Shown here piece by piece: positions 1,624 to 20,904 of a stretch of 64,000 nucleotides of DNA. Below the pieces are notes generated by a model, which searched no databases, was not told the DNA's origin, and saw nothing but the letters and a program-made list of their open reading frames with translations. This DNA is from an uncultured Microbulbifer sp. Lineage in GTDB: Bacteria; Pseudomonadota; Gammaproteobacteria; Pseudomonadales; Cellvibrionaceae. The translations under genes and the position numbers were made by a program. Where the stretch lies: the NCBI RefSeq assembly GCF_947498635.1, contig NZ_CANMKV010000006.1, forward strand, positions 1 to 64,000, given 5' to 3'. Every line of letters begins with the position of its first letter. Within the stretch, counting starts at the first letter, position 1.

Positions 1624-1668
1624 AATTGGACACTCAAGTTAATTGATTTAGCTATATTTATAAAGATT

Positions 1669-3757: not shown

Positions 3758-3797
3758 CTCTGTACGCTATAAGAAAGTAATACCTAGGATACCCTCA

Positions 3798-5876
3798 ATG
3801 CTTGAGAGAATGTTCGGAACAAAGAGTGAGGTAGTCCTCGTCTTAGGGGTTATTGGAATACTGATTGTGCTATTTGCACCTATTCCATCTGAAATCCTGG
3901 ATTTCCTTTTGTTGTTTAATCTAAGCACGGCTTTATTAATACTCCTTCTAACGTTTTATATGGATAGGCCCGTAGAATTTTCTACCTTTCCTGCAATATT
4001 ACTGATAGCAACATTGCTAAGACTTGCGCTAAATATTGCCGCCACTAGATTAATCTTAAGTAATGGAGATGCCGGAGAAGTCATTGGGGCGGTTGGTGAA
4101 TATGTAGTTGGTGGGAACTATATTGTTGGACTTGTTGTATTTTTTATTCTCATTGTTGTTCAGTTTATAGTTGTTACCAGCGGTGCTCAAAGGGTAGCAG
4201 AAGTTGCAGCTAGGTTTACTTTAGACAGTATGCCTGGCAAGCAAATGAGTATTGACGCAGATCTTAACATGGGCTTAATTGATGAAAAAGAAGCTCAAAA
4301 AAGAAGAAAAGAAATTGAGCGTGAGGCAAATTTCTATGGATCGATGGATGGTGCAAGCAAATTTGTTAAAGGAGATGCGGTTGCCGGAATAATTATTATT
4401 CTAATAGATATTATAGGTGGCCTGACAGTAGGAATCGCACAGTTAGGAATGAGCTGGGGCAATGCACTCCATACCTATACGTTGATGACGGTAGGGGATG
4501 GTATTGTGACTCAAATTCCAGCGTTAATTATCTCTACAGCAACAGGGATTATTATAACCCGAGCATCAAGCGATTCCTTCTTAGGGAATGAAATTTCCAA
4601 GCAAATTAGCCGTTATCCAAAGAGTTTAGTGTTAGTTTGTATTGCATTAGCATGTTTTTCAATTTTACCGGGCATCCCACTTTGGCCTATAGCTTTCCTC
4701 CTAGCAATCTTTATTCCAACATTGGTAATAATTTTCAAGAACAAACAATTTGATCCAGATAAGGAAGAAACAACCAACAAACAGGAAGAGGAAGAAGATA
4801 GAAATGAAAGCCAGGGATATCATGATATTGTTGTAGAACCGCTAGAAATAATAGCAGGGGATGAGCTGGGTGAATATTTATCCAAAGATACAATATTCCT
4901 TGAGAAAATAAGAGGGTTTAGAGCGCAGTATACACAAGAGATTGGTGTAGTAGTGCCTTCCTTAAAGATTTCTATTTCGCCAAAAATGGAATCAAGTGCT
5001 TATGAAATAAGATTGTTTGGTTCAAGAATCACAAAATCTGAATGCTATACAGATAAATGGCTAGGAATAAGTACAAGTAATATTATTAGCATTGACGGCA
5101 TAAAAACAAAAGATCCTTCATATGGGTTGCCAGCAGTATGGATTAATACTGAACAAAAAGATCAAGCCAAAGAAAGCGGCCTGACTGTTGTGGACCCTAT
5201 TACCGTGATATTTACTCACTTTAGTGAGATCATCAGAAAACATTCTGATGAGCTTATCACCCGTAAAGAGACAGAAATGCTTTTATCCAAAGTTAAGATG
5301 TCTCAGCCTGGCTTATACGATGAGCTAATTCCTGATAATTTGTCGCTAAGTGATATTCAAAAAATTCTTAAACTGCTTCTTAAAGAAAAAGTCCCAATTA
5401 AAAATGTAGAACTAATTGTAGAGTCATTGGTTGATAAATCTAGAACAATAAAAGAAACCCAGTTGTTGGTTGAATTGGTCCGTCAACAATTAGGAAGGAT
5501 TATATGCGAGCCTTTACTGGATGACGAAGGTGTGCTGCAGGTACTAACGTTAGAGCCTAGGCTTGAACGAAATTTAGCAGCAGGTATTGGTAGTGATGAT
5601 GGTTTGAGCAGTATGAATGTCGATCCTAGAATAATTGAAAAATTTACTATGAGTATTGCAAAGTCAGCTGAACAAATGATTAACTCAGGAAGTAAGCCGG
5701 TCTTATTATGTTCTGGTAAATTGAGGGCCCATTTACGACAACTGATAGAAAGATTTATGCCGCATATGTCTGTTATTTCCTTAAATGAAGTTCCAGGCAA
5801 TATCCAAGTAAATTCATTTGCAATCGTAAAAATAAATCAAGATGAGTTAGTTAAAAGAGAGCCAGTTGTAGCCTAA
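3798..5876 (+). CDS. flhA: Export gate platform protein FlhA
   Basis: At 692 residues this is a full-length FlhA. It has an N-terminal block of about eight membrane helices, the highly conserved cytoplasmic loop (TLDSMPGKQMSIDADLNMG, about residues 141-159) and a long soluble C-terminal domain that forms the nonameric docking ring. FlhA couples proton flow to export and receives chaperone-substrate complexes. A hydrophilic linker rich in Glu, Asp and Asn separates the two halves near residue 325-345. The stop codon overlaps the ATG of flgF. Nothing suggests decay, so the export gate is expected to be functional. Confidence 0.96.
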   Translation: MLERMFGTKSEVVLVLGVIGILIVLFAPIPSEILDFLLLFNLSTALLILLLTFYMDRPVEFSTFPAILLIATLLRLALNIAATRLILSNGDAGEVIGAVGEYVVGGNYIVGLVVFFILIVVQFIVVTSGAQRVAEVAARFTLDSMPGKQMSIDADLNMGLIDEKEAQKRRKEIEREANFYGSMDGASKFVKGDAVAGIIIILIDIIGGLTVGIAQLGMSWGNALHTYTLMTVGDGIVTQIPALIISTATGIIITRASSDSFLGNEISKQISRYPKSLVLVCIALACFSILPGIPLWPIAFLLAIFIPTLVIIFKNKQFDPDKEETTNKQEEEEDRNESQGYHDIVVEPLEIIAGDELGEYLSKDTIFLEKIRGFRAQYTQEIGVVVPSLKISISPKMESSAYEIRLFGSRITKSECYTDKWLGISTSNIISIDGIKTKDPSYGLPAVWINTEQKDQAKESGLTVVDPITVIFTHFSEIIRKHSDELITRKETEMLLSKVKMSQPGLYDELIPDNLSLSDIQKILKLLLKEKVPIKNVELIVESLVDKSRTIKETQLLVELVRQQLGRIICEPLLDDEGVLQVLTLEPRLERNLAAGIGSDDGLSSMNVDPRIIEKFTMSIAKSAEQMINSGSKPVLLCSGKLRAHLRQLIERFMPHMSVISLNEVPGNIQVNSFAIVKINQDELVKREPVVA

Positions 5877-6592
5877 TGGATGGAATCAATTCAATTATAA
5901 AAGCGATGCAAACAGACCTGAGAAAACTTAATGTTATAGGTCATAATTTAGCAAATGTTGATACCAATGCTTTTAAGCGTATTGTGGAGAATCTAAAAAC
6001 ACAAAATCTAGAGAAAGTTGATAATGCAGCAATCCGTTCGGAAAGAAAAAGAGTAAATTTAGATGTTCTCTCTCATATTGATAATTCCAACGGAGCATTA
6101 AAGCATACTGGTAGAGAGTTAAATATTGCCATCGAAGGTGACGGGTATTTTCAGATTCGTGATCAAGTAGGAACGTGGTTAACACGAAAAGGAGAGCTGA
6201 AGATCGATAGTGATGGATTTCTTACTTTACTTGATGGTTCAAAGTTGCAAGGTATTGATGGCGATATTCAAGTTCAGCCTGGAACTATTCATGTTAAAAA
6301 TAATGGAGAGATTTATCAATCTGACCAGCAAGCAATTGCAAAAATAGCAATTTTTAATGCTCCGGATCAAACCCTAGTAGAAAGAGGAGCAGGAAAATAT
6401 GCAAGTTCTTCGATATCTATTATTGAGCAACCTTCTATCAGACAAAAATTTTTAGAAACTTCAAATGTAAATCATTTGCAAGAAATGGTTAATTTGGTTG
6501 AGCTCACTAGACACTTTGAGGGTAGCCAACAGATCCTACAAGGGTACAGTACTATGATGGAAGAACTTATATCAAAAGTTGGAAGGGTCTAA
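5876..6592 (+). CDS. flgF: Proximal rod protein FlgF
   Basis: This 238-residue protein belongs to the rod/hook family. The N-terminal helix motif (MQTDLRKLNVIGHNLANVDT) is near residues 11-30, the GDGYFQI segment marks the central domain, and the C-terminal helix reads NVNHLQEMVNLVELTRHFEG. Its place directly before flgG and its length fit FlgF, the proximal rod. It starts on the last base of the flhA stop codon. It could be mistaken for FlgG, but the next gene fits FlgG better. Confidence 0.88.
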   Translation: MDGINSIIKAMQTDLRKLNVIGHNLANVDTNAFKRIVENLKTQNLEKVDNAAIRSERKRVNLDVLSHIDNSNGALKHTGRELNIAIEGDGYFQIRDQVGTWLTRKGELKIDSDGFLTLLDGSKLQGIDGDIQVQPGTIHVKNNGEIYQSDQQAIAKIAIFNAPDQTLVERGAGKYASSSISIIEQPSIRQKFLETSNVNHLQEMVNLVELTRHFEGSQQILQGYSTMMEELISKVGRV

Positions 6593-6625
6593 TAAATATA
6601 GCATTTAAAATTTGCGGGGTTAATA

Positions 6626-7390
6626 ATGATTGATGCACTTTATATTGCAGCTACTGGAATGCGAGCAGAGGCTGCACAAATTGACGCTATATCAAATAAT
6701 ATGGCAAATTTAAACACACCTGCGTATAAAAGGCAGGGTGTGAACTTTGAAAGCTTAATTTATCAAGCAGAAAAAACGGGATCGCTAAATAATCAGCTTC
6801 AATCTCAGGGGATGGGATCTGCAGCTACTAAAATTACCAGGTTTTACGAACAGGGCGATTTGAAAGTATCGAATGATAAATTAGATATAGCCATATCAGG
6901 AAAGGGATTCTTTGAAGTTGAACTTCCAAGTGGGTCTCTAGCATATACTAGAGTAGGTGATTTTAAACTTGATGAAAATGGTTTCCTAACGACAGATAAT
7001 GGATATTTATTAGCAGATCGAATTCAGGTGCCTACAGATGCAATTGAGATCAATATCTCCGAATCAGGTAAGGTTTCTGCTCGTCTAGCAAATAACTCAG
7101 AAGAATCATTGGGGCAGATATCACTTGCAGGATTTATGGCAGAGCAAGACTTGGATGTCATTACTGGTGGTTTATATGCAGCAAATGATGTTTCAGGACA
7201 AGCTTATTATTCTGAGCCAGGAGAAAATGGATTAGGCTTAGTGCGACAGGGTTATATTGAATCCTCAAATGTTGACTTGGTTGAAGAAATGTTGAGCTTA
7301 ACAATGGCACAACGTGCCTATGAAGGAAGCTCACAAGTCATTCGTGCCGCAGATGAAATAATGAAAATTAACAACTCACTAAGAATATAA
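6626..7390 (+). CDS. flgG: Distal rod protein FlgG
   Basis: The protein has 254 residues, close to the usual 260 for FlgG. It begins MIDALYIAATGMRAEAAQID and has the SNNMANLNTPAYKR motif of rod proteins. It ends with VEEMLSLTMAQRAYEGSSQV followed by IRAADEIMKINNSLR, the signature C-terminal helix of distal rod proteins. FlgG forms the rod section that crosses the periplasm and supports the P and L rings. A GGGG ribosome site lies just upstream. Together with FlgF, FlgB and FlgC it makes the rod set complete. Confidence 0.95.
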   Translation: MIDALYIAATGMRAEAAQIDAISNNMANLNTPAYKRQGVNFESLIYQAEKTGSLNNQLQSQGMGSAATKITRFYEQGDLKVSNDKLDIAISGKGFFEVELPSGSLAYTRVGDFKLDENGFLTTDNGYLLADRIQVPTDAIEINISESGKVSARLANNSEESLGQISLAGFMAEQDLDVITGGLYAANDVSGQAYYSEPGENGLGLVRQGYIESSNVDLVEEMLSLTMAQRAYEGSSQVIRAADEIMKINNSLRI

Positions 7391-7391
7391 A

Positions 7392-8345
7392 ATGTTGGTG
7401 AAGCAGTATAAATTTTTGATAATTTTCCTTATAACTGCTTCATCGGTAACTGCAGAAGAGGTTAAATTTAAACTATACCCAATCGTTAACCAGGAAACTG
7501 ATACAGTTTATGTTAGTAGCCTTGGGAAGGCCAAGCCTAAGTTAAATGAGGATTATAGAATAACTATTCCTGATGCTATAAAACTTGAAGCTACTAAGAA
7601 AGGATATTGGGTAAATAAATCTGACCTTTCCTCACTAATAAATAACTTATATCCTAAAGAAAAGATAAAAATACTAGGTCCACAAAGGATTAAAGTTCGA
7701 TGTCCAATGTTGCGGGTAGACAAGACCTTAATATTATCAAATATTGAAGAGTTATATAGAAAAAAAATTATAGCTGGGGATGATATAGCTGTTGATTCTA
7801 TTGATACCTTACCAAAAGTTAATTTATGTGTAAGACCTGGCAAAACTCTAGTAAAGAGATTCTCTAACGGGAAAATACGCTCCAGAGAGGCTGTAAATAT
7901 TACATTTGAGTCGGAGGGTAAAGTTGTTAGTAGTTTCCCGCTGTGGCTATCACTTTCTCATCAAAGCAAGGCGCTTATTTCTATTGATCAATATAAAAAA
8001 GGCACTTTATCTAATAAAATTAGGGTTACGCAAAGACAAACGGATGTCGCCAAATTAAATGAAAATATCATAAGTGAGATTCCATCTGGAATGCGCCTTA
8101 AGAAAAATTTAAGTCCCGATGAAGTGATTACAGTTGGAATGTTTGAAGCGGTACCCGAGGTGGAAATAGGTAGTCAGGTAAAAATTGTATCCATCGTAAA
8201 TGCTGTCAGAGTGATCACTACAGGAGTTGCTTTATCAGATGGGAAAATAGGAGATTTGGTTTCAGTAAAATTAAAAAATGGTAAAAGTATGTTCAAGGCA
8301 GAGGTTTTACAAAAGGGTGAAGTAGTTGTTAGGGGGGGAATATGA
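7392..8345 (+). CDS. flgA: P-ring assembly chaperone FlgA
   Basis: The 317-residue product starts with a Sec signal peptide (hydrophobic residues about 8-20, cleavage likely after TAEE or nearby). Its C-terminal half carries an SAF-type domain: SEIPSGMRLKKNLSPDEVIT, then KIVSIVNAVRVITTGVALSDG and a closing VKLKNGKSMFKAEV. FlgA is the periplasmic chaperone for P-ring protein FlgI. The protein is longer than the E. coli version. The gene lies directly after flgG and overlaps flgH by four bases (ATGA), so translation is coupled. Confidence 0.88.
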   Translation: MLVKQYKFLIIFLITASSVTAEEVKFKLYPIVNQETDTVYVSSLGKAKPKLNEDYRITIPDAIKLEATKKGYWVNKSDLSSLINNLYPKEKIKILGPQRIKVRCPMLRVDKTLILSNIEELYRKKIIAGDDIAVDSIDTLPKVNLCVRPGKTLVKRFSNGKIRSREAVNITFESEGKVVSSFPLWLSLSHQSKALISIDQYKKGTLSNKIRVTQRQTDVAKLNENIISEIPSGMRLKKNLSPDEVITVGMFEAVPEVEIGSQVKIVSIVNAVRVITTGVALSDGKIGDLVSVKLKNGKSMFKAEVLQKGEVVVRGGI

Positions 8346-9010
8346 GGATAACTCTAAAATTTATTTTATCAATTTTCCATATAATATTTTTCATTTCAAC
8401 TAACGCATATTCTGAATCACTTTTTAGTGATGAATCATTTGTACCCTTAATAGCAGATTATCGGGCAGTTGCAGTTGGCGACAATGTTACAATTGTAATT
8501 GTCGAGTCCTCGCGTGCTAGAGCGAATGATGGTAGTAGTGGATCTGCAACACTATCTGCTACTGCAGCTGGCCAGTTATCAACAACTAGAAGAGAAGAGC
8601 TGGGAGGTGCAACATTAGACTTAGGTTTTGGGACTTCACAAGATAGCAGTACAAAAAGGGATGGGTTGCTTAAGGCAGTCCTAACAGCTGATGTTATTGA
8701 GATTAGTCCAAATGGAAATCTTCTTCTTCATGGTAAGCAACATTTATTAGTAAATGGAGAGAATCAATATATATCAGTAACTGGTTGGGTGAGTCCATAT
8801 TATATAGATGAGAACAACACAGTACTTTCTAGCCGACTAAGCCAAACAAAAATCGTTTACTCAGGGAAAGATCCGGACGGAATTAGCTTTTGGAATAAAG
8901 TTGCCGGTTTTTTCTGTTGCCCGATGGATATGATATTTGGAGAGAGTGAAAACGAATTGGAAGAATTAGAATCTGAGAGTTATTTAGAAAATGAAGTATT
9001 TGATAAGTAG
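8342..9010 (+). CDS. flgH: L-ring protein FlgH without a lipobox
   Basis: The core is FlgH-like: the LIADYRAVAVGDNVTIVIVE segment near residues 38-57, the Ser/Ala-rich stretch, and DVIEISPNGNLLLHGKQHL with VTGWVSPYYID after it. FlgH normally is an outer-membrane lipoprotein. Here the N-terminal signal sequence (residues 1-24) has no cysteine at all, so lipid anchoring at the usual place is not possible. The C-terminus also carries an unusual tail of about 30 residues with a Cys-Cys pair (FFCCPMD) followed by a very acidic end. The L ring is therefore probably present but held in a different way. Confidence 0.88.
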   Translation: MRITLKFILSIFHIIFFISTNAYSESLFSDESFVPLIADYRAVAVGDNVTIVIVESSRARANDGSSGSATLSATAAGQLSTTRREELGGATLDLGFGTSQDSSTKRDGLLKAVLTADVIEISPNGNLLLHGKQHLLVNGENQYISVTGWVSPYYIDENNTVLSSRLSQTKIVYSGKDPDGISFWNKVAGFFCCPMDMIFGESENELEELESESYLENEVFDK

Positions 9011-9020
9011 AGGTTTTCAT

Positions 9021-10172
9021 ATGAATAGTTTTACATATAAAACACTTTACACAATCTTGATGTTTGTTATTACGGTAACAGCAGTGAATGATGTACTCGC
9101 ATCTATAAGGCTTAAGGAATTCGCTCGTGTTGAGGGAGTCAGAGATAATGCTTTAGTAGGTTATGGATTAGTTGCAGGACTTGCTGGAACTGGCGACACT
9201 CGTCGCTCCGATGCAACAATACAATCAATAGCTAATATATTGGCTCGATTTAATGTTATTGTCGATGAAGAAGAAATCAGTAGCCGCAATGTTGCAGCAG
9301 TTATAGTTACAGCTACCCTACCAGCATTTTATCAGCCAGGTGACAAAATTGATATTAACATTGCATCGGTTGGAGATGCTCGAAGCCTAATTGGTGGTAC
9401 TTTGCTTATGACCCCATTAACAGCGGCAAATGGGGAGATCTATGCATTAGCACAGGGCCCTATTTCTGTAGGGGGTTATTCTTATGGGCTAAATGGCAAT
9501 ATTATACAAAAAAATCATCCAACAGTAGGTGTAATTACAAATGGAGCAACGGTCGAAAAAGCAGTAAACACTCAATTAATTGAAGAGGGGACACTAAGTG
9601 TAGTTCTATCGGAACCCGATTTTACAACTGCTGCACGTGTTAAAAAAGCAATACAAAGTGTATTTCCATCACTTAATGTGTCAACACAACATGCCGGAAA
9701 AATTTTAATTGATGTACCTTCTAAAATTGATGTGATTGACCTGATAGCTGATATTGAGAACATTAAAATAAAACCGGATAATATCGCTAAGATCATTATT
9801 AATGAAAGAACGGGTACTGTGGTTTCAGGCGGATCTGTGGTTATAGATGCAGTCTCTATTTCTCATGGGAACTTAGAGCTAAATATTACAACAGATTATG
9901 CTGTTTCACAGCCAAATATTTTTGCTATCGAGTTAAATAAATCTCAAATAACGGATGAAAATGGCCAAGGTATTTCAACTGCTGTCGTACCACAAACAAA
10001 TCTTAGCGTTAAAGAGCAGTCCTTAGCGGCAGTATCTTTGCCATCAGGAAGTACAGTTAATGATCTTGTTCGTGCTCTTAAGCAGATACATGTTAGCACA
10101 AGAGATATGATTGCTATATTACAGGCAATTAAATCTGCGGGAGCTCTACATGCGAAACTTATTATCAATTAA
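9021..10172 (+). CDS. flgI: P-ring protein FlgI
   Basis: From this start the protein has 383 residues. It opens with a Sec signal peptide, then the conserved mature start RLKEFARVEGVRDNALVGYG, the GTGDT segment and GGTLLMTPLTAANGEIYALA. FlgI polymerises in the periplasm as the P ring around the rod. I prefer the ATG at 9021 because AGAGG lies seven bases upstream. An in-frame ATG at 8991 lies inside flgH and would add ten residues before the signal peptide. Its presence with FlgH and FlgA indicates a Gram-negative envelope-spanning bushing. Confidence 0.95.
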   Translation: MNSFTYKTLYTILMFVITVTAVNDVLASIRLKEFARVEGVRDNALVGYGLVAGLAGTGDTRRSDATIQSIANILARFNVIVDEEEISSRNVAAVIVTATLPAFYQPGDKIDINIASVGDARSLIGGTLLMTPLTAANGEIYALAQGPISVGGYSYGLNGNIIQKNHPTVGVITNGATVEKAVNTQLIEEGTLSVVLSEPDFTTAARVKKAIQSVFPSLNVSTQHAGKILIDVPSKIDVIDLIADIENIKIKPDNIAKIIINERTGTVVSGGSVVIDAVSISHGNLELNITTDYAVSQPNIFAIELNKSQITDENGQGISTAVVPQTNLSVKEQSLAAVSLPSGSTVNDLVRALKQIHVSTRDMIAILQAIKSAGALHAKLIIN

Positions 10173-10184
10173 CAGAAAATCACA

Positions 10185-10562
10185 ATGATTGATTTAATTA
10201 ATAGCCTAACTGGCAATCTTTTAGGAAAGTCCTTAGATCGAACTACTATTGAGAATCGTCTAATTGCAAATAACATTGCAAATTTAAACACTGAGGGCTA
10301 TAGACCACTTACAACTGAGATAGGACAATCATATGTCGATCTCCAAAAGGCCATAGAAATAAAGGATACTGAACGTTTAAATGAAATATCTGAATCATGG
10401 AAACCAAACGAAGACGTCAGTGTACACCCATCTTACATAACGGTAAGTCTCGATCAAGAAATGGTAAAGCTGGCAAACAATACCCTGTTATTCCAATCAT
10501 TGGCTACTGCAAAGTCAAAATTGTCGGACATATTAAAGGTTGCGATTAAGGAGGGGCGATGA
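10185..10562 (+). CDS. flgB: Proximal rod protein FlgB
   Basis: This 125-residue protein has the FlgB form. The N-terminal segment contains IENRLIANNIANLNTEGYRP, followed by a short middle, and the C-terminus contains VSLDQEMVKLANNTLLFQSL. FlgB joins FlgC, FlgF and FliE at the base of the rod. The start codon follows flgI by 12 bases. The stop overlaps the flgC start (ATGA). The order flgB-flgC-fliE-fliF is the one common to most flagellar operons. Confidence 0.92.
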   Translation: MIDLINSLTGNLLGKSLDRTTIENRLIANNIANLNTEGYRPLTTEIGQSYVDLQKAIEIKDTERLNEISESWKPNEDVSVHPSYITVSLDQEMVKLANNTLLFQSLATAKSKLSDILKVAIKEGR

Positions 10563-10963
10563 TGGCTACAGATAGTTTTGCAATTAGCCTGAGTGGTTTA
10601 GAGTTACAACGCCTTACCGTTGACACCATAGCGAAAAATATCGCTAACAGCACTAAGACTTTTAGTAATATCAAAGATGTATATAAGCCCCTTGAAGTTA
10701 TTGCGTCTAATAATAGTAATATACATATGAATGGGATTGAGAATATATCTATAACAGAGCGGAGTATTGATCCAAAGCGTGTTTATGATCCAACCCATCC
10801 TTATGCAGATGATGATGGTTTTATATATAAACCCGCAGTAGACAGTGTCGAAGAAATGGTATCATTGATGTCAGCTGTCCGTTCTTACCAGGCAAATATT
10901 CAAGCGTTAGAGGCTTCAAAAAAAATTATTCAATGGACAATTGATATGAGCTCAAAATCATGA
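10559..10963 (+). CDS. flgC: Proximal rod protein FlgC
   Basis: The 134-residue protein shows the FlgC N-terminal helix (FAISLSGLELQRLTVDTIAK), the VYDPTHPYADDDGFIYKP segment typical of FlgC near residues 77-95, and the C-terminal VEEMVSLMSAVRSYQANIQA helix. It is a rod subunit. GGAGG lies at 10550-10554, and two adjacent ATG codons (10559 and 10562) could both serve as start. The gene overlaps flgB upstream and fliE downstream. Confidence 0.94.
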   Translation: MMATDSFAISLSGLELQRLTVDTIAKNIANSTKTFSNIKDVYKPLEVIASNNSNIHMNGIENISITERSIDPKRVYDPTHPYADDDGFIYKPAVDSVEEMVSLMSAVRSYQANIQALEASKKIIQWTIDMSSKS

Positions 10964-11253
10964 AGATTGATGCAATAATTCCTTCAGAAAAAATTAAGTC
11001 ATTAGGTGTTTCTTCAATTTCCAATGAGCCTGAAAATAATCTATACAAGATGATTTCTTCTGAGATTCAGCATGTAAGTCAACAGTATAGAGTAGCTGAA
11101 GAGCAAGCATTAACTCTAACAAGTGGAGACTTAGATAATATCCACCAGGTAATGTCAGCTATTAATAAGGCCAAGTTAAGTTTTGAACTGGTTACACAGG
11201 TAAGAAATAAATTACTTGAAGGTTATCAGGAAATAATGAAGATGCAGGTATAA
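10960..11253 (+). CDS. fliE: MS-ring/rod adaptor FliE
   Basis: At 97 residues this matches FliE, the adaptor between the MS ring and the rod and the first protein exported through the gate. The C-terminal part with INKAKLSFELVTQVRNKLLE and GYQEIMKMQV is the family signature. It starts within the flgC stop (ATGA) and is followed after 13 bases by fliF. Confidence 0.92.
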   Translation: MKIDAIIPSEKIKSLGVSSISNEPENNLYKMISSEIQHVSQQYRVAEEQALTLTSGDLDNIHQVMSAINKAKLSFELVTQVRNKLLEGYQEIMKMQV

Positions 11254-11266
11254 CGAGAAAAGTTTT

Positions 11267-12685
11267 ATGCGTTTAGATTTAGATTCAAATCTCAAGAAAA
11301 TATTTTTATTTTTATTTTTATTTATATTTTCTGCTTGCTTGGCTACAATTTTATTTCTCTTGTTTAAAAACAATAAAGAAGTTTTAGTGGGAGATTTGCA
11401 AGGAGGTGAAGTTACTACAGTTACAAAAGCATTAATCGATAATAACATTTTGTTCGACCATGATGAAAAAAATGGTGTAGTCCTAGTTCCAGAGGAGAAG
11501 CTAGGTGTCGCTAGAATGATCCTTGCAGATAATGGACTGCTAGATTTAGAAAGTATTGGGTTCGAAATATTTGATGACACCTCATATGGATTAACAGAAT
11601 TTTCACAAAAAATTTATTATCAGCGTGCTCTTCAAGGGGAGCTTGAAAAATCAATAAAGACTCTTGAGGTGGTGCGTAGCGTAAGAGTTCATCTGGTTTT
11701 ACCTGATTCTTCTTTATTTAAAAAAAATCAAGAAGAAGCCAAGGCTTCTGTAGTTTTGACAATTAAAAATAATTACAACCTTGGTCAAGACAGGGTAATA
11801 GGAATTCAAAATCTATTAGCCGCTTCAGTACCTAAACTTAAGCCCGCCAATGTAACAGTTATGGACACAAGTGGCAGGTTACTTTCTAGCACTGAGATGC
11901 CTATAGGTGGTGCTTTACAGAAGGTGGAATTCAAGAAGGATATTGAGGGTTACTATACAAAAAAAATTAATGAAATTGTCCTCAAACTCGTTGACGAGAA
12001 AAGTGCTGTTGTAGCTGTTAATGTAGTAATTGATTACTCAAAATCAGAGAGCACACTGCAGAATACACTTCCTCTAGTTAACTCAGACTCAGGAGTTTTG
12101 GTCAGCAATAAAACAAGCAGAGAATACAATAATAGTAATTCTTCAAAATCTAATGGACGTTTAGGTGGTAGTGGTATTCTGTCAGAGAAAATTGAGAATA
12201 ACTATCAGTACTCAAGTGAACTCATAAAAAAAGAGGTTAGTCCAGGTAGGGTTAGCAGAATTAGCGTTTCCGTGTTATTAACTAAAGATTTCACTGAAGA
12301 TCAAATAGGAAAGTTAAACAATTTAATTACAAATGCAGTTGGTTTAGATGCTACAAGAGGTGATCTGATATCTATTGAGATGATCCCTTCTTTGCCGAGT
12401 ATTTCTACTGAGAAATTAGTTGCTCCCGATGATGATCCATCATTAACTTTACAAGTTAATGATAAACCACTAGTTAACACCCAAAATAGCCCTTCCTGGA
12501 AGAGTATTATAGTTGGCGGTGAAAATATCTACCTATATGTAATTCTTTTCTTTTCTTTTGTTGTTTTTTTATTCTTGGTTTTAAGAAGGGGAAGGCTTAA
12601 GGCATCAGAAAGGGCAGAAGTTTTGCAGGATATGAGAAATTGGCTCGATGAAAAATCAAATTCCGAAAAAATCAGTATCAAATAA
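11267..12685 (+). CDS. fliF: MS-ring protein FliF, shortened
   Basis: FliF forms the inner-membrane ring that houses the export gate. Visible parts are an N-terminal membrane helix (about residues 12-32) and the ring-building motifs with EKLGVARMILADNGL and YQRALQGELEKSIKTLEVVR and VHLVLPDSSLF, followed by a second membrane helix near residue 420-440. It has 472 residues, whereas typical FliF is about 550. The cytoplasmic tail after the second helix is only about 30 residues. That tail is the part that normally binds FliG, and it ends in EVLQDMRNWLDEK. The gene overlaps the next reading frame by 38 bases. Confidence 0.94.
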   Translation: MRLDLDSNLKKIFLFLFLFIFSACLATILFLLFKNNKEVLVGDLQGGEVTTVTKALIDNNILFDHDEKNGVVLVPEEKLGVARMILADNGLLDLESIGFEIFDDTSYGLTEFSQKIYYQRALQGELEKSIKTLEVVRSVRVHLVLPDSSLFKKNQEEAKASVVLTIKNNYNLGQDRVIGIQNLLAASVPKLKPANVTVMDTSGRLLSSTEMPIGGALQKVEFKKDIEGYYTKKINEIVLKLVDEKSAVVAVNVVIDYSKSESTLQNTLPLVNSDSGVLVSNKTSREYNNSNSSKSNGRLGGSGILSEKIENNYQYSSELIKKEVSPGRVSRISVSVLLTKDFTEDQIGKLNNLITNAVGLDATRGDLISIEMIPSLPSISTEKLVAPDDDPSLTLQVNDKPLVNTQNSPSWKSIIVGGENIYLYVILFFSFVVFLFLVLRRGRLKASERAEVLQDMRNWLDEKSNSEKISIK

Positions 12686-13043
12686 ATATACTAAATTGGC
12701 AGCAATTAGATACAAATCATTATCTCTTTTCGATCGTATCTGGTTGCGTTTTCAGCTTGGCAGCGAATATAGGCTGCAGCTGAGGGGGGCTTTAAACGAG
12801 CTGAAGCTAAAAGGTTTTAATAAAATTAATTATCATGATGTTAAACACCTTCTAATTGAGAAAGATAAAACGCAAATTGAAAGTGATAGCCTCGTAGATA
12901 GCCTCGTAGATAGCTCCAATCTTCCGAGCTACATTTCGTTGATAGAAAGTGAAGGGATAAATAATCTGGAGGTTAAATCTGAGGTTACACCACATGTAAA
13001 AGAATTGCTCAAGAAGATATCTGCAGAATATATTAAGGGGTAA
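12648..13043 (+). CDS. Unknown 131-residue protein in the fliG/sctK position
   Basis: I do not recognise this protein. It is soluble, basic in its first half (LFDRIWLRFQLGSEYRLQLR) and acidic in the middle, and it contains a small in-frame tandem repeat (DSLVDSLVDS) encoded by two 12-base copies at 12885-12908. FliG would be about 330 residues and would show armadillo-type and C-terminal motor-domain motifs; none is seen. The gene sits between fliF and fliH, the place of fliG in flagellar operons and of sctK between sctJ and sctL in injectisome operons. It could be a new C-ring linker, an extreme FliG remnant or an SctK analogue. A TTG at 12696 just after the fliF stop is an alternative start. 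Confidence 0.75.
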   Translation: MKNQIPKKSVSNKYTKLAAIRYKSLSLFDRIWLRFQLGSEYRLQLRGALNELKLKGFNKINYHDVKHLLIEKDKTQIESDSLVDSLVDSSNLPSYISLIESEGINNLEVKSEVTPHVKELLKKISAEYIKG

Positions 13044-13048
13044 ATTCA

Positions 13049-13831
13049 GTGTCGGATATAATTCGTCGGCCCAGAATAAATGGAACTCATAAAGTATCAT
13101 ACACTAATTCTGATGTTGCTTCTTCTTTGAAGCCGGATAGAAAAAGTGTAAGGGATATCAATGATGAAAATAATGAGTCTGAAAAAGAAATTAAGCTACT
13201 TAAGCAAGAGGTCGCATCCTTAAAGGAGACAATTTCAAAGCGTAACGCAGAGATTAAAAATATACAAAAAAATCTTCGTGAATCGAAAGATTCTTATGAG
13301 ACTCTAAAAAGTAGCTTTGAGAATAAGATAGATCTAGAAATAAAAAAAGGTTATTCAGAAGGATGGCAACAAGCAAAGAAAGAATATAAGCAGCACTTGG
13401 TTGAACACCAGTCCAAACTATCAAGTGAATTTAGTGAGAAAATAAATCTATTGAACAAGCTCTCTGAATCACAGTGGGCAAATGTTACAGAGAAGGCAGT
13501 AAGTTTTGCACTGGAAATTTCAGGCAAAGTTTTTGGGTATGAATATATAAAAGAAAATGGACTAAAAGCATTAGTAATAAATTTAATTAATGAAGCGCCA
13601 GAAAAAAAATGCATTACCATAAAAGCCTCACCCTTCGATATAGATAGGCTGAAAAAAATACATGGAGAAATCGAAGGAGCAATTGGTGGTAAGGTAAATC
13701 TTTCGCCAATCAAAAACTTTAAAAATGGTGAAATATTCGCAGAATGTGACGTTTGTATTCTTGACGGCAGTCTAGATAAGCAACTTATGGTAATTAAAGA
13801 TACAGTTCTACTTGAGTTTGAAGGTGAGTAG
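13049..13831 (+). CDS. fliH: Export ATPase regulator/stator FliH
   Basis: The 260-residue protein has a charged coiled coil (about residues 45-130, rich in Lys, Glu, Ser and Asn) and a C-terminal globular domain beginning near ESQWANVTEKAVSFALEISG. FliH binds FliI, and in flagella it links the ATPase to the C ring. Sequence conservation is low, as usual for this family, so the call rests also on position just before fliI. The start is GTG, preceded by AAGGGG with eight-base spacing. An alternative label would be the injectisome homologue SctL. Confidence 0.82.
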   Translation: MSDIIRRPRINGTHKVSYTNSDVASSLKPDRKSVRDINDENNESEKEIKLLKQEVASLKETISKRNAEIKNIQKNLRESKDSYETLKSSFENKIDLEIKKGYSEGWQQAKKEYKQHLVEHQSKLSSEFSEKINLLNKLSESQWANVTEKAVSFALEISGKVFGYEYIKENGLKALVINLINEAPEKKCITIKASPFDIDRLKKIHGEIEGAIGGKVNLSPIKNFKNGEIFAECDVCILDGSLDKQLMVIKDTVLLEFEGE

Positions 13832-13840
13832 ACTGTACTT

Positions 13841-15181
13841 ATGAATTCTGAAATAAATATCATAAATCGAATTAGAGCTGCAAATACTATAGGGAAGTTT
13901 GGAAAGCTTATAAGTTTTCATGGAACATTCCTGACTGCCGTAGGGATTGATGTATATATCGGTGATTTCTGTTATATCTATACGGATGACAAAGAATATA
14001 AAATCCGTGCTGAGGTGATTGGATTTGATGAAAGAAAAGTAATCCTTATGCCCTTTGATTCACTGAGGGGAGTAAAGCTGGGGAATTTAGTAGAAAGGGC
14101 TGAGGGTAAAAATGAATTAACAATTGGTCCTGAACTTATCGGCAGAGTAATGGATCCATTGGGGAAGCCTATTGACTCACTTGGTGAAGTTTCCCCAAAT
14201 AAAGATAATAGTTTTGATTTATCAACCCTAATCAACCCTTTTGAAAGAAAGAAAATTGACACAATCATTTCAACAAAAATACCAATTGTTGATTCACTCT
14301 TAACAATTGGCAAGGGACAAAGGGTTGGAATATTTTCTGGTAGTGGTGTTGGTAAAACAACTCTTATTACTCAATTACTTGAGAATGCTGATTCAGATGT
14401 AAATGTTATCGCCCTAATCGGTGAGCGCGGACGTGAAGTAACGGAATTCATAGAGAGTTTTCTTGGAGAGCAGGGCTTAGCAAAGTCTGTAATTATCGTT
14501 GCCTCTGCTGACCAACCACCTTTAAGTAGAGTCTATGCGGCATATACTGCGATAAAGGTAGCGGAATATTTTAGCTATCAGGGAAATGATGTATTGTTGG
14601 CCGTGGACTCCATCACTAGACTGGCTATGGCACAGAGAGAGATTGGCTTAGCAAGAGGGGAACCGCCATCTGTTAAAGGCTATACACCATCATGTTACTC
14701 TGTTTTACCACATCTTGTCGAAAGGGCTGGAGCATTTAAAAATAGGGGATCAATTACCGCATATTATACCGTCTTGGTCGAAGGCGATGATATGAGTGAT
14801 CCTATAGCAGATTATATGCGTGGAATTTTAGATGGCCACATAGTATTGGATCGTGATATTGCAGCACAAGGTAAGTACCCTGCAGTTAACTTACGGGAAA
14901 GTGTTAGCCGAGTTATGAATTCACTTATAAATGACTCAGAAAAGCTAACCCTTAATTCTATATATAAATATCATTCTTTATACTTTGAGTCGAAATCAAT
15001 GATTGAAATTGGTGCATATAAAGAGGGCGACAATTTAGAGCTTGACAAAGCAATACATATAGAAAAAAAAATTAATGATTTACTTTATACGGGCAAGCTT
15101 ATGGAAAGAACTCGGGTCATTCAAGAGCTGTCTCTTATTGTTAAGTCTGCTCACCGGCTAGAAGATAAATCAAACTCTTGA
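13841..15181 (+). CDS. fliI: Type III export ATPase FliI
   Basis: FliI is the hexameric ATPase that unfolds substrates and feeds them to the gate. The 446-residue protein has the Walker A loop GSGVGKTT at about residues 167-174 and the segment ALIGERGREVTEFIESFLGE. The Walker B-like region DVLLAVDSITRLAMAQREIG follows, with RGEPPSVKGYTPSCYSVLPH downstream. All catalytic features of the family are present. It lies between fliH and fliJ, the standard order. Confidence 0.96.
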   Translation: MNSEINIINRIRAANTIGKFGKLISFHGTFLTAVGIDVYIGDFCYIYTDDKEYKIRAEVIGFDERKVILMPFDSLRGVKLGNLVERAEGKNELTIGPELIGRVMDPLGKPIDSLGEVSPNKDNSFDLSTLINPFERKKIDTIISTKIPIVDSLLTIGKGQRVGIFSGSGVGKTTLITQLLENADSDVNVIALIGERGREVTEFIESFLGEQGLAKSVIIVASADQPPLSRVYAAYTAIKVAEYFSYQGNDVLLAVDSITRLAMAQREIGLARGEPPSVKGYTPSCYSVLPHLVERAGAFKNRGSITAYYTVLVEGDDMSDPIADYMRGILDGHIVLDRDIAAQGKYPAVNLRESVSRVMNSLINDSEKLTLNSIYKYHSLYFESKSMIEIGAYKEGDNLELDKAIHIEKKINDLLYTGKLMERTRVIQELSLIVKSAHRLEDKSNS

Positions 15182-15188
15182 AATCAGA

Positions 15189-15659
15189 ATGATCTCGAAG
15201 TTAAGACAATTTAGTGATAAAATACAAGTCTTAGTGACTTACAAGCAAATACTTTTGAATGATAGAGATAAGTTACTTAATCTAATTGCGGACAAAAAAA
15301 CATACTTGTTGAATTTGGAGTTTGATCTTGATTCCAACTCTAAAGAACTGGCTGAAGTTGAAAATTTTATTTTATCTCAGCATTCAAATAAGAATTTAGA
15401 TCTTCATTTTCTTAGAGTTCAAGAGAGTTATTTTTTTGGTATGGAAAAGAGCCTTGATGAACTTCGTTCAAAAATTGAGACGTGCAGACTGAATGAATCT
15501 GAACTTATGGAGAAATATGTCTCGCTAGAAAAAAAAATTAACGAAATTGAGGGAAAAATTTTTTCTCTAAAGAAAAAGCGAAGTTTCTATCATGGTGTTT
15601 ATGTGGATCAAGATATAAACAATCTTTATTTGCTTAGAAGCGCATATAAAAAAGGATAA
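15189..15659 (+). CDS. fliJ: FliJ-like coiled-coil export protein
   Basis: The 156-residue product is almost wholly helical and charged, with heptad-like spacing over its full length. This is the appearance of FliJ, the stalk protein inside the FliI ring that contacts FlhA. Primary sequence of FliJ proteins is poorly conserved, so the call depends on size, coiled-coil character and the position seven bases after fliI. No membrane segment or signal sequence is present. Confidence 0.75.
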   Translation: MISKLRQFSDKIQVLVTYKQILLNDRDKLLNLIADKKTYLLNLEFDLDSNSKELAEVENFILSQHSNKNLDLHFLRVQESYFFGMEKSLDELRSKIETCRLNESELMEKYVSLEKKINEIEGKIFSLKKKRSFYHGVYVDQDINNLYLLRSAYKKG

Positions 15660-15666
15660 TTACATT

Positions 15667-16302
15667 ATGGGCTTTGGGGTGGTTGAGAAAAATACCGGAT
15701 CGATTGCGAGAGATAGCTACAAAGAAACTCATGAAGATACCAAGGATTTAATGGCCAGAGAGTGGGAAAAGGCATTATTAGCGGCATCAGACTCGTCTAA
15801 AAGTTTTAAAAAAAATGAAAATATAGAGAATCAAGTAGAGTTGGTGGAGAATAAAAATCTTCTTTGGGATTTATCATCTGTCCATGAGTTTAAAGTTTGT
15901 AGCGATGTCCAGCATAGTTCAGTTATGCAAAATTATTTCAGCGGTTATCCCAAGATACCTGAAAAAGATTCCCTGGTATCGATTAGTTTGAGCAAAAATT
16001 TTCCTACAGATATAAATCTAGATTCTGCTAATAAATTTAATGATACAAAAAAATTGCCACTAATAAATAAAACAGAGAGAGCTTTATATCGTGGGCTCAG
16101 CAACTCTCTGCCTGATAGAACAATATTATTATTGGTTCGTGGAAAGTTTGGATTGGAGGTTCGTATCCGTGATTATTTTGGAAGTACTGATGAGGTAATA
16201 CGAACTGCTTTTGAACTATCAAACCGGCTAGGGATTAAGATAGATAAAATAACTATAAATGGTTCTATTATAAAAGAAGAGGTGAGTAGATATGTCTATT
16301 GA
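15667..16302 (+). CDS. FliK-position protein, candidate hook-length control protein
   Basis: This 211-residue protein lies between fliJ and flgD, where fliK is normally found. The first 130 residues are polar and low in conserved features. The last 60 residues (starting RTILLLVRGKFGLEVRIRDY) form a compact alpha/beta-looking block that could correspond to the C-terminal switch domain of FliK. FliK is usually 350-450 residues with a long Pro/Gln-rich ruler, which is absent here. If it is a ruler, the hook should be short. The assignment is by context and remains uncertain. Confidence 0.55.
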   Translation: MGFGVVEKNTGSIARDSYKETHEDTKDLMAREWEKALLAASDSSKSFKKNENIENQVELVENKNLLWDLSSVHEFKVCSDVQHSSVMQNYFSGYPKIPEKDSLVSISLSKNFPTDINLDSANKFNDTKKLPLINKTERALYRGLSNSLPDRTILLLVRGKFGLEVRIRDYFGSTDEVIRTAFELSNRLGIKIDKITINGSIIKEEVSRYVY

Positions 16303-16702
16303 TGCTGTTGGTAGAGTTGCTGGTGAGCAGTCTTTAAACGAGCAAAGTACAGTTAATCTTGATGAATTCATGCGTATCTTTATTACGCAACTGAATTATC
16401 AGGACCCGTTAGATCCTGTTGACAACCGTGAATTTCTTACTCAACTGGCTGAATTTTCAAACTTGGAAATTGCGAAATCATCACAAACGAATATTTCTGA
16501 TTTGTTAAATGTAAATGCAGTGAGCCAGTCTCTCGGTTTATTAGGCAAGACCGTAGAGGTGAGTGGTAGTGGAGGAGCAATTATCGGAAGTGTTACCTCT
16601 ATTAGGTTTGTTGAAGGGTCGCCCTTACTGTCTTTGACAACATCAACCAATGAAGTTATCACTGATTTATCACCTGCTGAAATAAGGATTATTAGGGAGT
16701 AA
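16292..16702 (+). CDS. flgD: Hook-cap/scaffold protein FlgD, short form
   Basis: The N-terminal FlgD signature is clear: LDEFMRIFITQLNYQDPLDP with DNREFLTQLAEFSNLEIAKS after it (about residues 24-66). FlgD caps the growing hook. At 136 residues it is much shorter than the usual 220-230, because the C-terminal Tudor-like and FN3-like domains are missing or reduced to the beta strands around VEVSGSGGAIIG. The gene overlaps the preceding one by 11 bases and ends six bases before flgE. Short FlgD forms are known, so this is not by itself a sign of decay. Confidence 0.9.
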   Translation: MSIDAVGRVAGEQSLNEQSTVNLDEFMRIFITQLNYQDPLDPVDNREFLTQLAEFSNLEIAKSSQTNISDLLNVNAVSQSLGLLGKTVEVSGSGGAIIGSVTSIRFVEGSPLLSLTTSTNEVITDLSPAEIRIIRE

Positions 16703-16707
16703 AATTT

Positions 16708-17889
16708 ATGTCTCTACTCAGTGTTGTAGGAAATAGTTTATCGGGATTTAAGGCTTTTACTAGGAAGTTAGATAATCTGAGTCATAATGTTGCCAATATG
16801 AACTCTCCTGGATTTAAAAAGCAGGATAGTTATTTTAGAGAGCTGAATGATAATCGTCTTGGAGATGGAATAAAATTTGCGGGTTCCAAAACACAATTTA
16901 CTCAAGGCGATATTTTTAAAACAGGACAAAATACTGATTTAGCTATTGATGGTGATGGATTTTTCATTATAAAAACTAACGATCAGTATCTTTATACTCG
17001 AGCAGGACAGTTTGAATTTAATGAAGGTAAACTTGTTGATATTAGCACAGGTGGAGATGTTTTAGCATTATCAGAGTCTGGTGAGCTAACAGAAATTAGT
17101 ATAGCTGAATGGCAGTCGACTGACTTTATTCCTACAACAGAAGTAAACTTATCTGGTAATTTAAGCTCTCTGGCCGCTGATAATACAGAATTTCCCCTCG
17201 CTACGGACCCTCCAATTACAGTAGAGGTTTATGATTCTTTCGGTGCCCTTCATTCACTTACTGTTAAGTATACAAAAGAGGTATCTGGAGAGTGGAAAGC
17301 AGAAGTTTTTAATGAAAGCAACAGCTTGGTTGGTGAAGGCTTACTGGGATTTACTTCCGCCGGATCACCGATTTCTGGATTAAATGAGTTTCCGGTAAAT
17401 CTGCTATTAAATAACGATCTTACACACGAAATTCTTTTCAAATCCGGTGAGGCCGGAGAGTTTGATGGTTTGACAAGTTTTCCTTCTCAAACTAATAGTT
17501 TAACTGCGATAAATACTGATGGGCGCGGAGAGGGAATTTTACTTAGCACTGAATTCAATTCTGATGGAAGATTGGTGTTAACTTATTCTAATGGTATGAC
17601 TGAGGAGCCATTTTCATTGGCCTTAGCTAACTTTTTGGATACAAGTTCTCTTGAGGTAATGTCTAACAGCCTTTTTAAAGCTCAAGGTATCCCGGAGATT
17701 ATTGCTACTGCTGATGAACCAATTGTTGGAAGTATTAAATCCTCTTCATTGGAGCGTTCAAATGTAGATGTAACGGATGAATTCTCAGAAATTATAATAA
17801 TTCAGCGGGGATATCAAGCCTGTTCTCAGGTGCTCACTGTTTCTAATCAAATGATCGAAGAATTATATAATAGCTCTAAAGGTCGATAG
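16708..17889 (+). CDS. flgE: Hook protein FlgE
   Basis: FlgE builds the hook. This 393-residue protein has the N-terminal SLSGFKAFTRKLDNLSHNVA helix, the GDGFFII segment and the central FlaE domain with VEVYDSFGALHSLTVKYTKE. The C-terminal helix is SNVDVTDEFSEIIIIQRGYQ. The length is normal for a hook protein. A short GGAG-like ribosome site (TTAGGGAG) lies close to the flgD stop. It is the most distal structural protein encoded in the window, since no hook-filament junction or filament genes follow. Confidence 0.94.
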   Translation: MSLLSVVGNSLSGFKAFTRKLDNLSHNVANMNSPGFKKQDSYFRELNDNRLGDGIKFAGSKTQFTQGDIFKTGQNTDLAIDGDGFFIIKTNDQYLYTRAGQFEFNEGKLVDISTGGDVLALSESGELTEISIAEWQSTDFIPTTEVNLSGNLSSLAADNTEFPLATDPPITVEVYDSFGALHSLTVKYTKEVSGEWKAEVFNESNSLVGEGLLGFTSAGSPISGLNEFPVNLLLNNDLTHEILFKSGEAGEFDGLTSFPSQTNSLTAINTDGRGEGILLSTEFNSDGRLVLTYSNGMTEEPFSLALANFLDTSSLEVMSNSLFKAQGIPEIIATADEPIVGSIKSSSLERSNVDVTDEFSEIIIIQRGYQACSQVLTVSNQMIEELYNSSKGR

Positions 17890-18654
17890 ATGAATAGTAG
17901 CAACTTTTATATTTTTTCTAAGGACGAGATTGATAAATTTTATAGCCGGGTATGTGATGAAGTTTTAGGGGCTTCTTTTAAGTGGTTTGGTTGTCAATTT
18001 AAGGAGGTTTCGATAAGTAATGCATACTCATTAGATATTGCTGACAAATCCTTTTCAGCTTCATACTATACAGAAAACATAATTGTTGATCTTCCTGAAG
18101 ATCATAAGTCCATTTTACTGGAAAAGCTATTAAACACAGCAGTTGATGACGATGATTTCGCCCATTTTATAAGCTCCGAATTATTGCTTGAATTTTTCTC
18201 TGATTTTATTTCTATTTTTGATGAGAGTCAAAGATTAAGAGCTGTAGATAAAAAATTAGATGATATTATTTTCAATTATGGTTCAGGTTGGATTTCAGTT
18301 GAGTTGTACTTTCAGGATGATTTTCTATTCAGGCTGCATCTTAATCAATCGGTTGTTAATGATGTAATTGGCAATAGGAGACAGTTTTTCTCTGATAAGA
18401 AAAGAATCTCTAAATTTAACTCATTATTAAAGGATCGTGAGTTAAAATACGCAGCTGAAATAACCCCTGTCCTGTTAAGCTTAAGCCAAATTAAGAATCT
18501 TGAAGTTGGTGATGTTATTAGGACAGATAAAAAGGTTAATGAAGAAATTCGTTTAGTTTCTGAAAATGGTCAAGTATGTATTCTCGGGTACCTCTGTAAG
18601 AAGGGTTCAAATAGAGCCATATTCTTAAATAGTCCTGGGATAATTGATAGTTAG
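17890..18654 (+). CDS. fliM: Reduced FliM/SctQ-like C-ring protein
   Basis: At 254 residues this is about 80 shorter than a normal FliM. Residues 9-18 (IFSKDEIDKF) resemble the CheY-binding N-terminal motif of FliM (LSQ-EID). The C-terminal 65 residues, with LLSLSQIKNLEVGDVIRTDK, look like a SpoA (surface presentation) domain. The middle part is strongly diverged, and I cannot find the GG-x-G motif by which FliM binds FliG. The overall layout is closer to injectisome SctQ proteins. It starts directly after the flgE stop and is followed by fliN, which supports a C-ring role. Confidence 0.72.
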   Translation: MNSSNFYIFSKDEIDKFYSRVCDEVLGASFKWFGCQFKEVSISNAYSLDIADKSFSASYYTENIIVDLPEDHKSILLEKLLNTAVDDDDFAHFISSELLLEFFSDFISIFDESQRLRAVDKKLDDIIFNYGSGWISVELYFQDDFLFRLHLNQSVVNDVIGNRRQFFSDKKRISKFNSLLKDRELKYAAEITPVLLSLSQIKNLEVGDVIRTDKKVNEEIRLVSENGQVCILGYLCKKGSNRAIFLNSPGIIDS

Positions 18655-18662
18655 GAGTTGTT

Positions 18663-18974
18663 ATGTCCTTTGAAAATGAGATCGATGTTTTAGAACCTTC
18701 TGAAATGAATGAGAGTAACGGTAAAAAATTGTTTGAACAGATTAACCCAAAGTTTCTTAAAGGGATTGAGGTGGAGGTTAAGGTTGAGCTTGGAAATACG
18801 AGTATTTCCTTTGAGAAATTGGCCACTTTATCAGCTGGGAATATCATTCAGCTAGATACACCAACAGATCAATATGTAAATTTAACAGTTGCGGATGAGG
18901 TGTTTGCTAAAGGAATTCTTGTGGTTGTTAATGGTTATTATGGTGTGAAAATTGAAGAGGTCTTTAAAGGTTGA
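18663..18974 (+). CDS. fliN: C-ring protein FliN
   Basis: The 103-residue protein carries a standard SpoA domain: GIEVEVKVELGNTSISFEKL, then the LSAGNIIQLDTPTDQYVNLT stretch and the closing GYYGVKIEEVF. FliN forms the base of the C ring and docks FliH-FliI complexes. Length and motifs are normal. GGAGTTG precedes the start. The stop overlaps the fliO start (TTGA). Confidence 0.93.
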   Translation: MSFENEIDVLEPSEMNESNGKKLFEQINPKFLKGIEVEVKVELGNTSISFEKLATLSAGNIIQLDTPTDQYVNLTVADEVFAKGILVVVNGYYGVKIEEVFKG

Positions 18975-19402
18975 CATTCCTGGGTTTATTGCGGTTTTTC
19001 TTTAGTATGCTTTTGATAGCTGTCTCGGTTCAAGTGGTTGCCGATGATGATCTTATACCTCGTCTGGAGCAGGAGAACCAGCTAGAAGTAGCTCAAAAAG
19101 AGTCCGTTGTTTTTAAACAAGATTTAATTCAGGAGGGCTTGTTTTCAAATGCATATTTTGTGGTCTTGTTTTCTTTGGTCGTTATTTTTCTTTTTTTTAA
19201 GTTCAATGGTCTTAAAAGACGAGGAGAGTTGTTGAAAGGGAATAATATAGATCTAATTGAGAAAAAAATTATAGATAATAAGCTTATGGCTTATTTGTTG
19301 GTTGTTGATGGTAAGCAGACTTTAATTGTACAGCAGCCAGGTAGTATATGTGTGACCCTTTTGTCTGGGGAAGCCAATTTGGAAGTTGATTCTGGTGCCT
19401 AA
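18971..19402 (+). CDS. fliO: FliO-like gate assembly protein
   Basis: The 143-residue protein has a cleavable-looking hydrophobic N-terminus (about residues 3-23), a periplasmic stretch, one membrane helix (about residues 58-78, rich in Phe, Leu and Val) and a small cytoplasmic domain ending LSGEANLEVDSGA. This is the architecture of FliO, which helps FliP assemble. Position between fliN and fliP agrees. The likely start is a TTG overlapping the fliN stop, and an ATG at 19007 is an alternative. Confidence 0.8.
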   Translation: MTFLGLLRFFFSMLLIAVSVQVVADDDLIPRLEQENQLEVAQKESVVFKQDLIQEGLFSNAYFVVLFSLVVIFLFFKFNGLKRRGELLKGNNIDLIEKKIIDNKLMAYLLVVDGKQTLIVQQPGSICVTLLSGEANLEVDSGA

Positions 19403-20153: not shown

Positions 20154-20166
20154 TTTATATTTCAAG

Positions 20167-20877: not shown

Positions 20878-20904
20878 ATAAAGCTCTTGTATTTTCACTG
20901 TGGT

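Follow-up and report, generated by a model that had tools for sequence, protein, structure and literature searches.

The protein in the fliG slot

The window examined here, a stretch of 64,000 nucleotides from an uncultured Microbulbifer sp. (contig NZ_CANMKV010000006.1, positions 1 to 64,000), carries a flagellar gene cluster at 1669–20877, all on the + strand and preceded by a gene for a tetratricopeptide repeat (TPR) protein. In the place of fliG, between fliF (11267–12685) and fliH, this cluster holds a small gene (12648–13043, +) whose 131-residue product, together with the machine that it may serve, is the subject of this analysis. We confirmed the existence of this open reading frame (ORF), which starts with ATG and overlaps the end of fliF by 38 bases; fliH begins at 13049. 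Because a related ORF occupies the slot in all 34 operon genomes inspected, this one included, a chance ORF was ruled out, and the small protein that an earlier note had reported in place of FliG proves to be a conserved part of the operon.

Searched as a single sequence, the 131-residue protein matched nothing in NCBIfam and nothing in Pfam below E 0.08, and a protein search that relies on shared exact words returned only the protein itself at E ≤ 1. A protein search with the family profile, likewise dependent on exact words, returned 6 proteins, and a fold search with the protein's own structure model returned little. Since these searches gave little, the family was collected by gene position, with the start codons of several members set by hand (loci L066 and L067 are included in alignment A5, not in A2). 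When ranked by a family profile that held no member of Microbulbifer, the 131-residue ORF came out on top of the 234 ORFs of the window (E 2e-4; next, E 1). Single-sequence Pfam searches of 26 family members at E ≤ 1 recovered FliG_M in one (E 0.0065), FliG_N in one (E 0.061) and the related MgtE_N in nine (best E 8e-5).

Comparison of profiles with hhalign matched the family to FliG with a probability of 89–94. The alignment to the FliG N-terminal domain (E 4e-5 with 26 members, 4e-4 with 22 members) covers residues 10–59 of the 131-residue protein, for which a structure model gave helices at 13–54 with high confidence, and the family matches the N-terminal and middle (ARM) domains of FliG by both profile and fold. 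For the FliG_C torque domain the probability was under 1. At the level of its family, these comparisons of profiles and modelled folds identify the slot protein as a FliG that keeps the N-terminal, FliF-binding domain and, in reduced form, the middle (armadillo) domain, and that lacks the C-terminal domain in contact with the MotA stator. Judged from sequence, it is a FliG derivative, and we do not class it as a full FliG because no FliG_C match falls at the small protein. The earlier note had seen no FliG features in it, which holds for the single sequence and had to be given up for the family, as a FliG domain match, which the note itself had named as a refutation, came up once the family profile was used.

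The operon and its probable lack of a motor

A whole-genome search for FliG_C (PF01706), which the earlier note had called for, gave no match at E ≤ 0.001 in this genome (4.52 Mb in 173 contigs; a draft listed as 100% complete), and the same search was positive in 4 of 14 control genomes. In the other 30 operon genomes, none of the 20 FliG_C matches lies at the operon's small protein. Flagellin_N also went unmatched at E ≤ 0.001 in this genome. FliG_C and flagellin are jointly absent from 12 of 31 operon genomes and both present, elsewhere in the genome, in the remaining 19, indicating that neither belongs to the system. Eight proteins of the MotA/ExbB family were found in this genome; by NCBIfam, one is over the TolQ cut-off, five are nearest TolQ/ExbB, one is nearest ZorA and one is unmatched, and none is over a MotA cut-off (MotB was not searched). 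The protein nearest the ZorA models, below their cut-offs, is encoded at L008 (G000 C39:38762–38986) beside another ORF, and this locus is possibly a Zorya-type defence system.

The FliM-like protein (17890–18654) was recognised only by its C-terminal FliMN_C domain (PF01052, E 2e-7; PF02154 unmatched), and the FliM middle domain went unrecognised in this cluster and three relatives (4 of 4), whereas an ordinary FliM of the same genus has the FliM domain besides FliMN_C. The FliF of this cluster has a cytoplasmic tail of 28 residues after its last predicted transmembrane helix, with ER..VL.DMRNWL as its last stretch. Median tail lengths were 73 residues (51–120) in 59 FliF proteins with an adjacent FliG and 34 (20–51) in 21 without, and W followed by L/M/I/F/H stands near the end of FliF in 33 of the former and 19 of the latter. 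The short FliF tail described earlier is thus borne out, and the suggestion that the C ring is not a rotor is supported by the lack of FliG_C at the operon's small protein, the unrecognised FliM middle domain, and the absence from this genome of flagellin or of MotA over its cut-off.

Read in order, the cluster opens with fliQ (1669–1935; TIGR01402, E 2e-25, 88.7 bits against a cut-off of 88.9), fliR (1935–2699; TIGR01400, over cut-off), flhB (2675–3757; TIGR00328, over cut-off and better than the SctU model) and flhA (3798–5876; TIGR01398, E 6e-228, 758.6 bits, just below the cut-off of 772.1 and better than the SctV model). These are followed by the rod genes flgF (5876–6592; TIGR03506, over cut-off; TIGR02490, E 6e-39) and flgG (6626–7390; TIGR02488, E 1e-74), flgA for the P-ring chaperone (7392–8345; TIGR03170, over cut-off), flgH for the L ring (8342–9010; NF001301, E 6e-28, below cut-off), flgI for the P ring (8991–10172; NF003676, over cut-off), the rod genes flgB (10185–10562; NF009266, E 7e-11, below cut-off) and flgC (10559–10963; TIGR01395, over cut-off), and fliE (10960–11253; TIGR00205, over cut-off). 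After fliF for the MS ring (TIGR00206, over cut-off) and the slot gene come a fliH-like gene with a GTG start (13049–13831; assigned by position and a weak YscL/HrpE match, NF005392, E 3e-5), fliI for the ATPase (13841–15181; TIGR01026, over cut-off), a fliJ-like coiled-coil gene (15189–15659; position only, weak coiled-coil matches) and a fliK-like gene (15667–16302; position only, no family match). The cluster continues with flgD (16292–16702; NF007197, E 4e-22, below cut-off), flgE for the hook (16708–17889; TIGR03506, over cut-off), the FliM-like gene, fliN (18663–18974; PF01052, E 4e-19), a fliO-like gene (18971–19402; position and TIGR03500, E 0.018) and fliP (19386–20153; TIGR01103, over cut-off), and closes with a sigma factor of the FliA/WhiG type (20104–20877; TIGR02479, E 4e-24, below cut-off). 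Genes for the rod, P and L rings, hook, export gate and ATPase are therefore all present. As flagellar models outscore injectisome models for FliQ, FliR, FlhB, FlhA and FliP, we regard the system as a flagellar-type type III secretion system (T3SS) rather than an injectisome.

The TPR protein gene (481–1623, +) lies directly upstream of fliQ and encodes 380 residues matched by Pfam TPR families; this protein, TPR1, has a 61% identical homolog before fliQ in genome G022 (L039) and relatives in the clusters of G477 and G505. The GC content is 36% in the cluster (1669–20877) against 55% in the remainder of the window (21000–64000), a contrast that suggests horizontal acquisition of the cluster; the names of the nearest FliF proteins point to Microbulbifer as the genus. 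Transposase-like ORFs, identified by eye, lie upstream of the cluster in G022 (L039 1951–3961), and megablast of 1500–20900 against plasmids gave no match.

Spread of the operon and giant Rhs-repeat proteins

Among 58 genomes of relatives, 29 have a FliF match; in 7 (this one included) a short FliF is followed by the small protein, 21 have FliG adjacent, and in one (G053) the operon and the FliG type could not be told apart, its 305-residue FliF-like ORF (L037, C1) having no adjacent FliG or recognised neighbour of the operon. In 80 named loci collected with a FliF profile, an ordinary FliG lies beside FliF in 59. The other 21 agree with the window in gene order up to the ends of their contigs, with a small ORF in the slot, and come from Vibrio, Legionella, Xanthomonas, Stenotrophomonas, Caballeronia, Ralstonia, Variovorax, Ramlibacter, Massilia and others, including one Verrucomicrobia. 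Three further operon genomes (G080, G099, G106) came from the set collected for an ordinary FliF. At least 4 of 397 Pseudomonadota genomes drawn, the window's own among them, have the system (this one, G477, G505 and G543), all counts from this draw being lower bounds as at most 9 (family profile) or 14 (giant proteins, below) initial candidates per genome were scored. In G477 the genes are the same in permuted order; G505 escaped the family profile and came to light by its giant gene. Among 31 operon genomes, the profile failed to pick up the small protein in 3 (G028, G060, G061) and gave weak hits to it in G069 and G073.

Across the family the slot protein measures 98–236 residues. In a FliF tree (quick, unrooted, with some long branches, and with one ORF over 700 residues left out), a branch with support 100 separates the 30 proteins of this type from the 59 with FliG. 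The shortest FliG-like member, of 98 residues, is encoded in the same genus (L044 10533–10826, –), and the FliF of that genome forms the longest end branch. One genome of Aquabacterium (G059) has, besides its first, a second locus with fliF, a small FliG-like gene, fliH and fliI (C38:723–1178; L194).

Beside the cluster of three relatives from the same genus, we found the start of a gene for a giant Rhs-repeat protein. The N-terminus of this protein was found in 6 of the 7 system genomes among the 58 relatives and in 0 of 51 others, meaning those not seen to have the operon (Fisher p 2e-7). For the named genomes (49 of 50 searched), the controls were 29 proteobacterial FliG-type loci of the 59, chosen before the search; as G080, G099 and G106 also held the system they were moved, which changed the split from 18/21 versus 3/28 to 20/24 with the system versus 1/25 without, the latter a partial match (p 7e-9; the family profile was run on 10 of the 28 controls). 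The 397-genome draw gave matches beginning at the N-terminus in three genomes, each of which carries the system, whereas the one partial match fell in a genome where the system was not seen (3/4 versus 1/393, p 2e-6; 2/3 when the window's own genome is set aside). Matches starting at residue 1 or 2 of the N-terminal profile were confined, in both the named and the 397-genome searches, to operon genomes. The partial matches, at G225 C9:22458 and G102 C5:21896, cover profile positions 39–77 and 42–70 only and probably represent a common Rhs-associated part. In 16 of 28 genomes with both, the giant gene and the slot gene lie on one contig, about 8–38 kb apart.

Of 29 non-partial giant matches in the named genomes, 24 lie in open frames of 2,285–8,751 residues and 5 in shorter ones. 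Three giants that were scanned all have Rhs repeats, some have DUF6531, Ig-like, CBM or LysM domains, one has a C-terminal TNT toxin domain, and each contains one or two cysteines. Several giants with the same N-terminus can occur per genome (G018, C1:1856766 and 1886645; G074, C3, C5 and C8), in frames of about 5,000–6,100 residues. In the genome of the window, two very similar giant-gene starts break off at contig ends, on C19 and C27 (L248), as expected of a repeated gene in a draft assembly. A small TPR gene lies divergently beside the C19 start (L131/L199, C19:1–299 and 607–1182); relatives of this TPR gene stand behind the sigma factor in the G477 and G505 clusters.

A candidate secretion channel and its alternatives

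We consider it likely that the truncated FliG is part of a non-rotating, filament-less hook-basal body of flagellum type that acts as a secretion channel, with the giant Rhs proteins as its probable cargo. The truncated FliG would hold a ring of the FliM-like protein and FliN under the MS ring by way of the short last helix of FliF, and a ring so reduced would let FliH and FliI load cargo. The operon encodes the rod, both outer rings, hook, export gate and ATPase of a hook-basal body that should not rotate and for which searches of this draft assembly gave no filament gene; the structure would work as a secretion channel. Through this tube the giants, whose genes lie close to the operon in other genomes and at two ends of contigs here, would be exported by their shared N-terminus. 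Their chaperone may be the small TPR protein, whose gene neighbours the giant gene in this genome and belongs to the operon in two others. The system is thus probably a motorless relative of the flagellum, given to the export of giant toxin-like proteins instead of swimming. With somewhat less assurance, we favour the broader view of a distinct flagellum-derived secretion machine, present in about 1 in 100 of the proteobacterial genomes drawn, with FliG as a static linker and with giants (most of about 2,300–8,800 residues, at least one with a toxin domain) leaving through a hook-like tube by means of a shared N-terminal signal and a TPR chaperone. Secretion would then have evolved from the flagellum along a second route, with the truncated FliG still recognisable.

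The cargo is the part of this proposal that is most open to another reading. The giants co-occur with the operon and are likely its cargo; the giant–operon counts are not independent of ancestry, and their physical link could also stem from shared transfer. It is possible, if doubtful, that the FliG reading is right and the cargo something else, the giants and the operon travelling on the same mobile DNA. The foreign composition of the operon here, the operon genomes in which these searches found no giant, and the shared contigs within 38 kb fit this alternative; on the other side, the link is seen in several families, and the partial matches in G102 and G225 miss precisely the N-terminal part that was otherwise confined to operon genomes.

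The remaining alternatives concern the machine itself. Injectisome operons have SctK between SctJ and SctL, and the earlier note had likened the slot protein to SctK; the analogy stands for position and size. A homolog of SctK, or a new linker family, in an injectisome-like machine whose operon resembles that of a flagellum is nevertheless unlikely. SctK did give the best of the non-FliG comparisons (probability 1.3–3.6; best E 0.012 at 3.6), although the FliG E-value is four to five orders of magnitude better, and SctK compared directly with FliG reached a probability of 3.7 at best. Both figures rest on two SctK sequences, taken from the 2 genomes, among 143 of the class, in which YscK passed its cut-off, and make for a weak negative: homology is unsupported by profile comparison, and two sequences are too few to exclude it. 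SctK was absent among the sequence and fold hits of the family, an absence that excludes nothing, and YscK (PF06578) gave no match in this genome; the export genes fit flagellar models better, and rod, ring and hook genes are present. Kinship with SctK is thus not demonstrated. A decaying flagellar operon that has lost FliG, stator and filament, its other genes being relics, would account for the missing flagellin, FliG_C and MotA and for the AT-rich sequence. We think it quite improbable, as the genes are open and, apart from the permuted G477, keep their order as far as contigs reach in Vibrio, Legionella, Xanthomonas and Burkholderiales, with the reduced FliG still in its slot and the giants co-occurring; judging from this conservation, relics would hardly keep their gene set so widely. 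The 19 operon genomes with FliG_C and flagellin might be taken to hold a second, working flagellum whose FliG, stator and filament are supplied from another place in the genome. This is highly improbable given the 12 that have neither, this one included, a FliG slot already occupied by the truncated protein, and FliM proteins whose middle domain went unrecognised.

Comparison with known systems

Hook-basal bodies of Buchnera are flagellar bodies without filament that are thought to export protein. The slot protein has the operon position of FliG and the profile and fold of its N-terminal and middle domains; unlike FliG, which has about 335 residues and a torque domain, the family ends at 236 residues without one, the middle-domain EHPQ is not kept in the one member examined, and no MotA over cut-off accompanies it in this genome. 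Like SctK, it is small, is encoded between the genes for the MS ring and FliH/SctL and has a presumed role as linker; its operon differs by its flagellar rod, rings and hook, and sequence kinship with the two SctK sequences was not detected. Standing where SctK would, the protein may function as sorting-platform linkers do, but its kinship is with FliG. A 2014 review tabulates SctK against ‘FliG (?)’ (PMC4045390), which leaves that correspondence open. Relatives of FliG without torque domain, of 98 to 236 residues and in FliG's own place, would offer a natural series from rotor part to fixed linker.

We found no description of this system in the open-access (PMC) literature, subscription papers lying mostly outside its scope. 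As far as the text consulted goes, the flagellum-related T3SS of Myxococcales (Abby and Rocha, 2012; PMC3459982) likewise has no FliG and no MotAB and was proposed to move protein; it is described without FlgBCDEK, FliE and FlgH, whereas FlgBCDE, FliE and FlgH are present in this cluster. The giants share Rhs repeats (3 of 3 scanned) and a TNT domain (1 of 3) with the Rhs and polymorphic toxins (Zhang et al., 2012; PMC3482391) and differ from them in a shared N-terminus that goes with a flagellum-type operon, a feature without mention in the portion consulted. For this group, whose secretion route we did not find in the open-access texts as far as consulted, that N-terminus would be a testable export signal, and the operon would represent a second transition from flagellum to secretion, comparable with that of the injectisomes.
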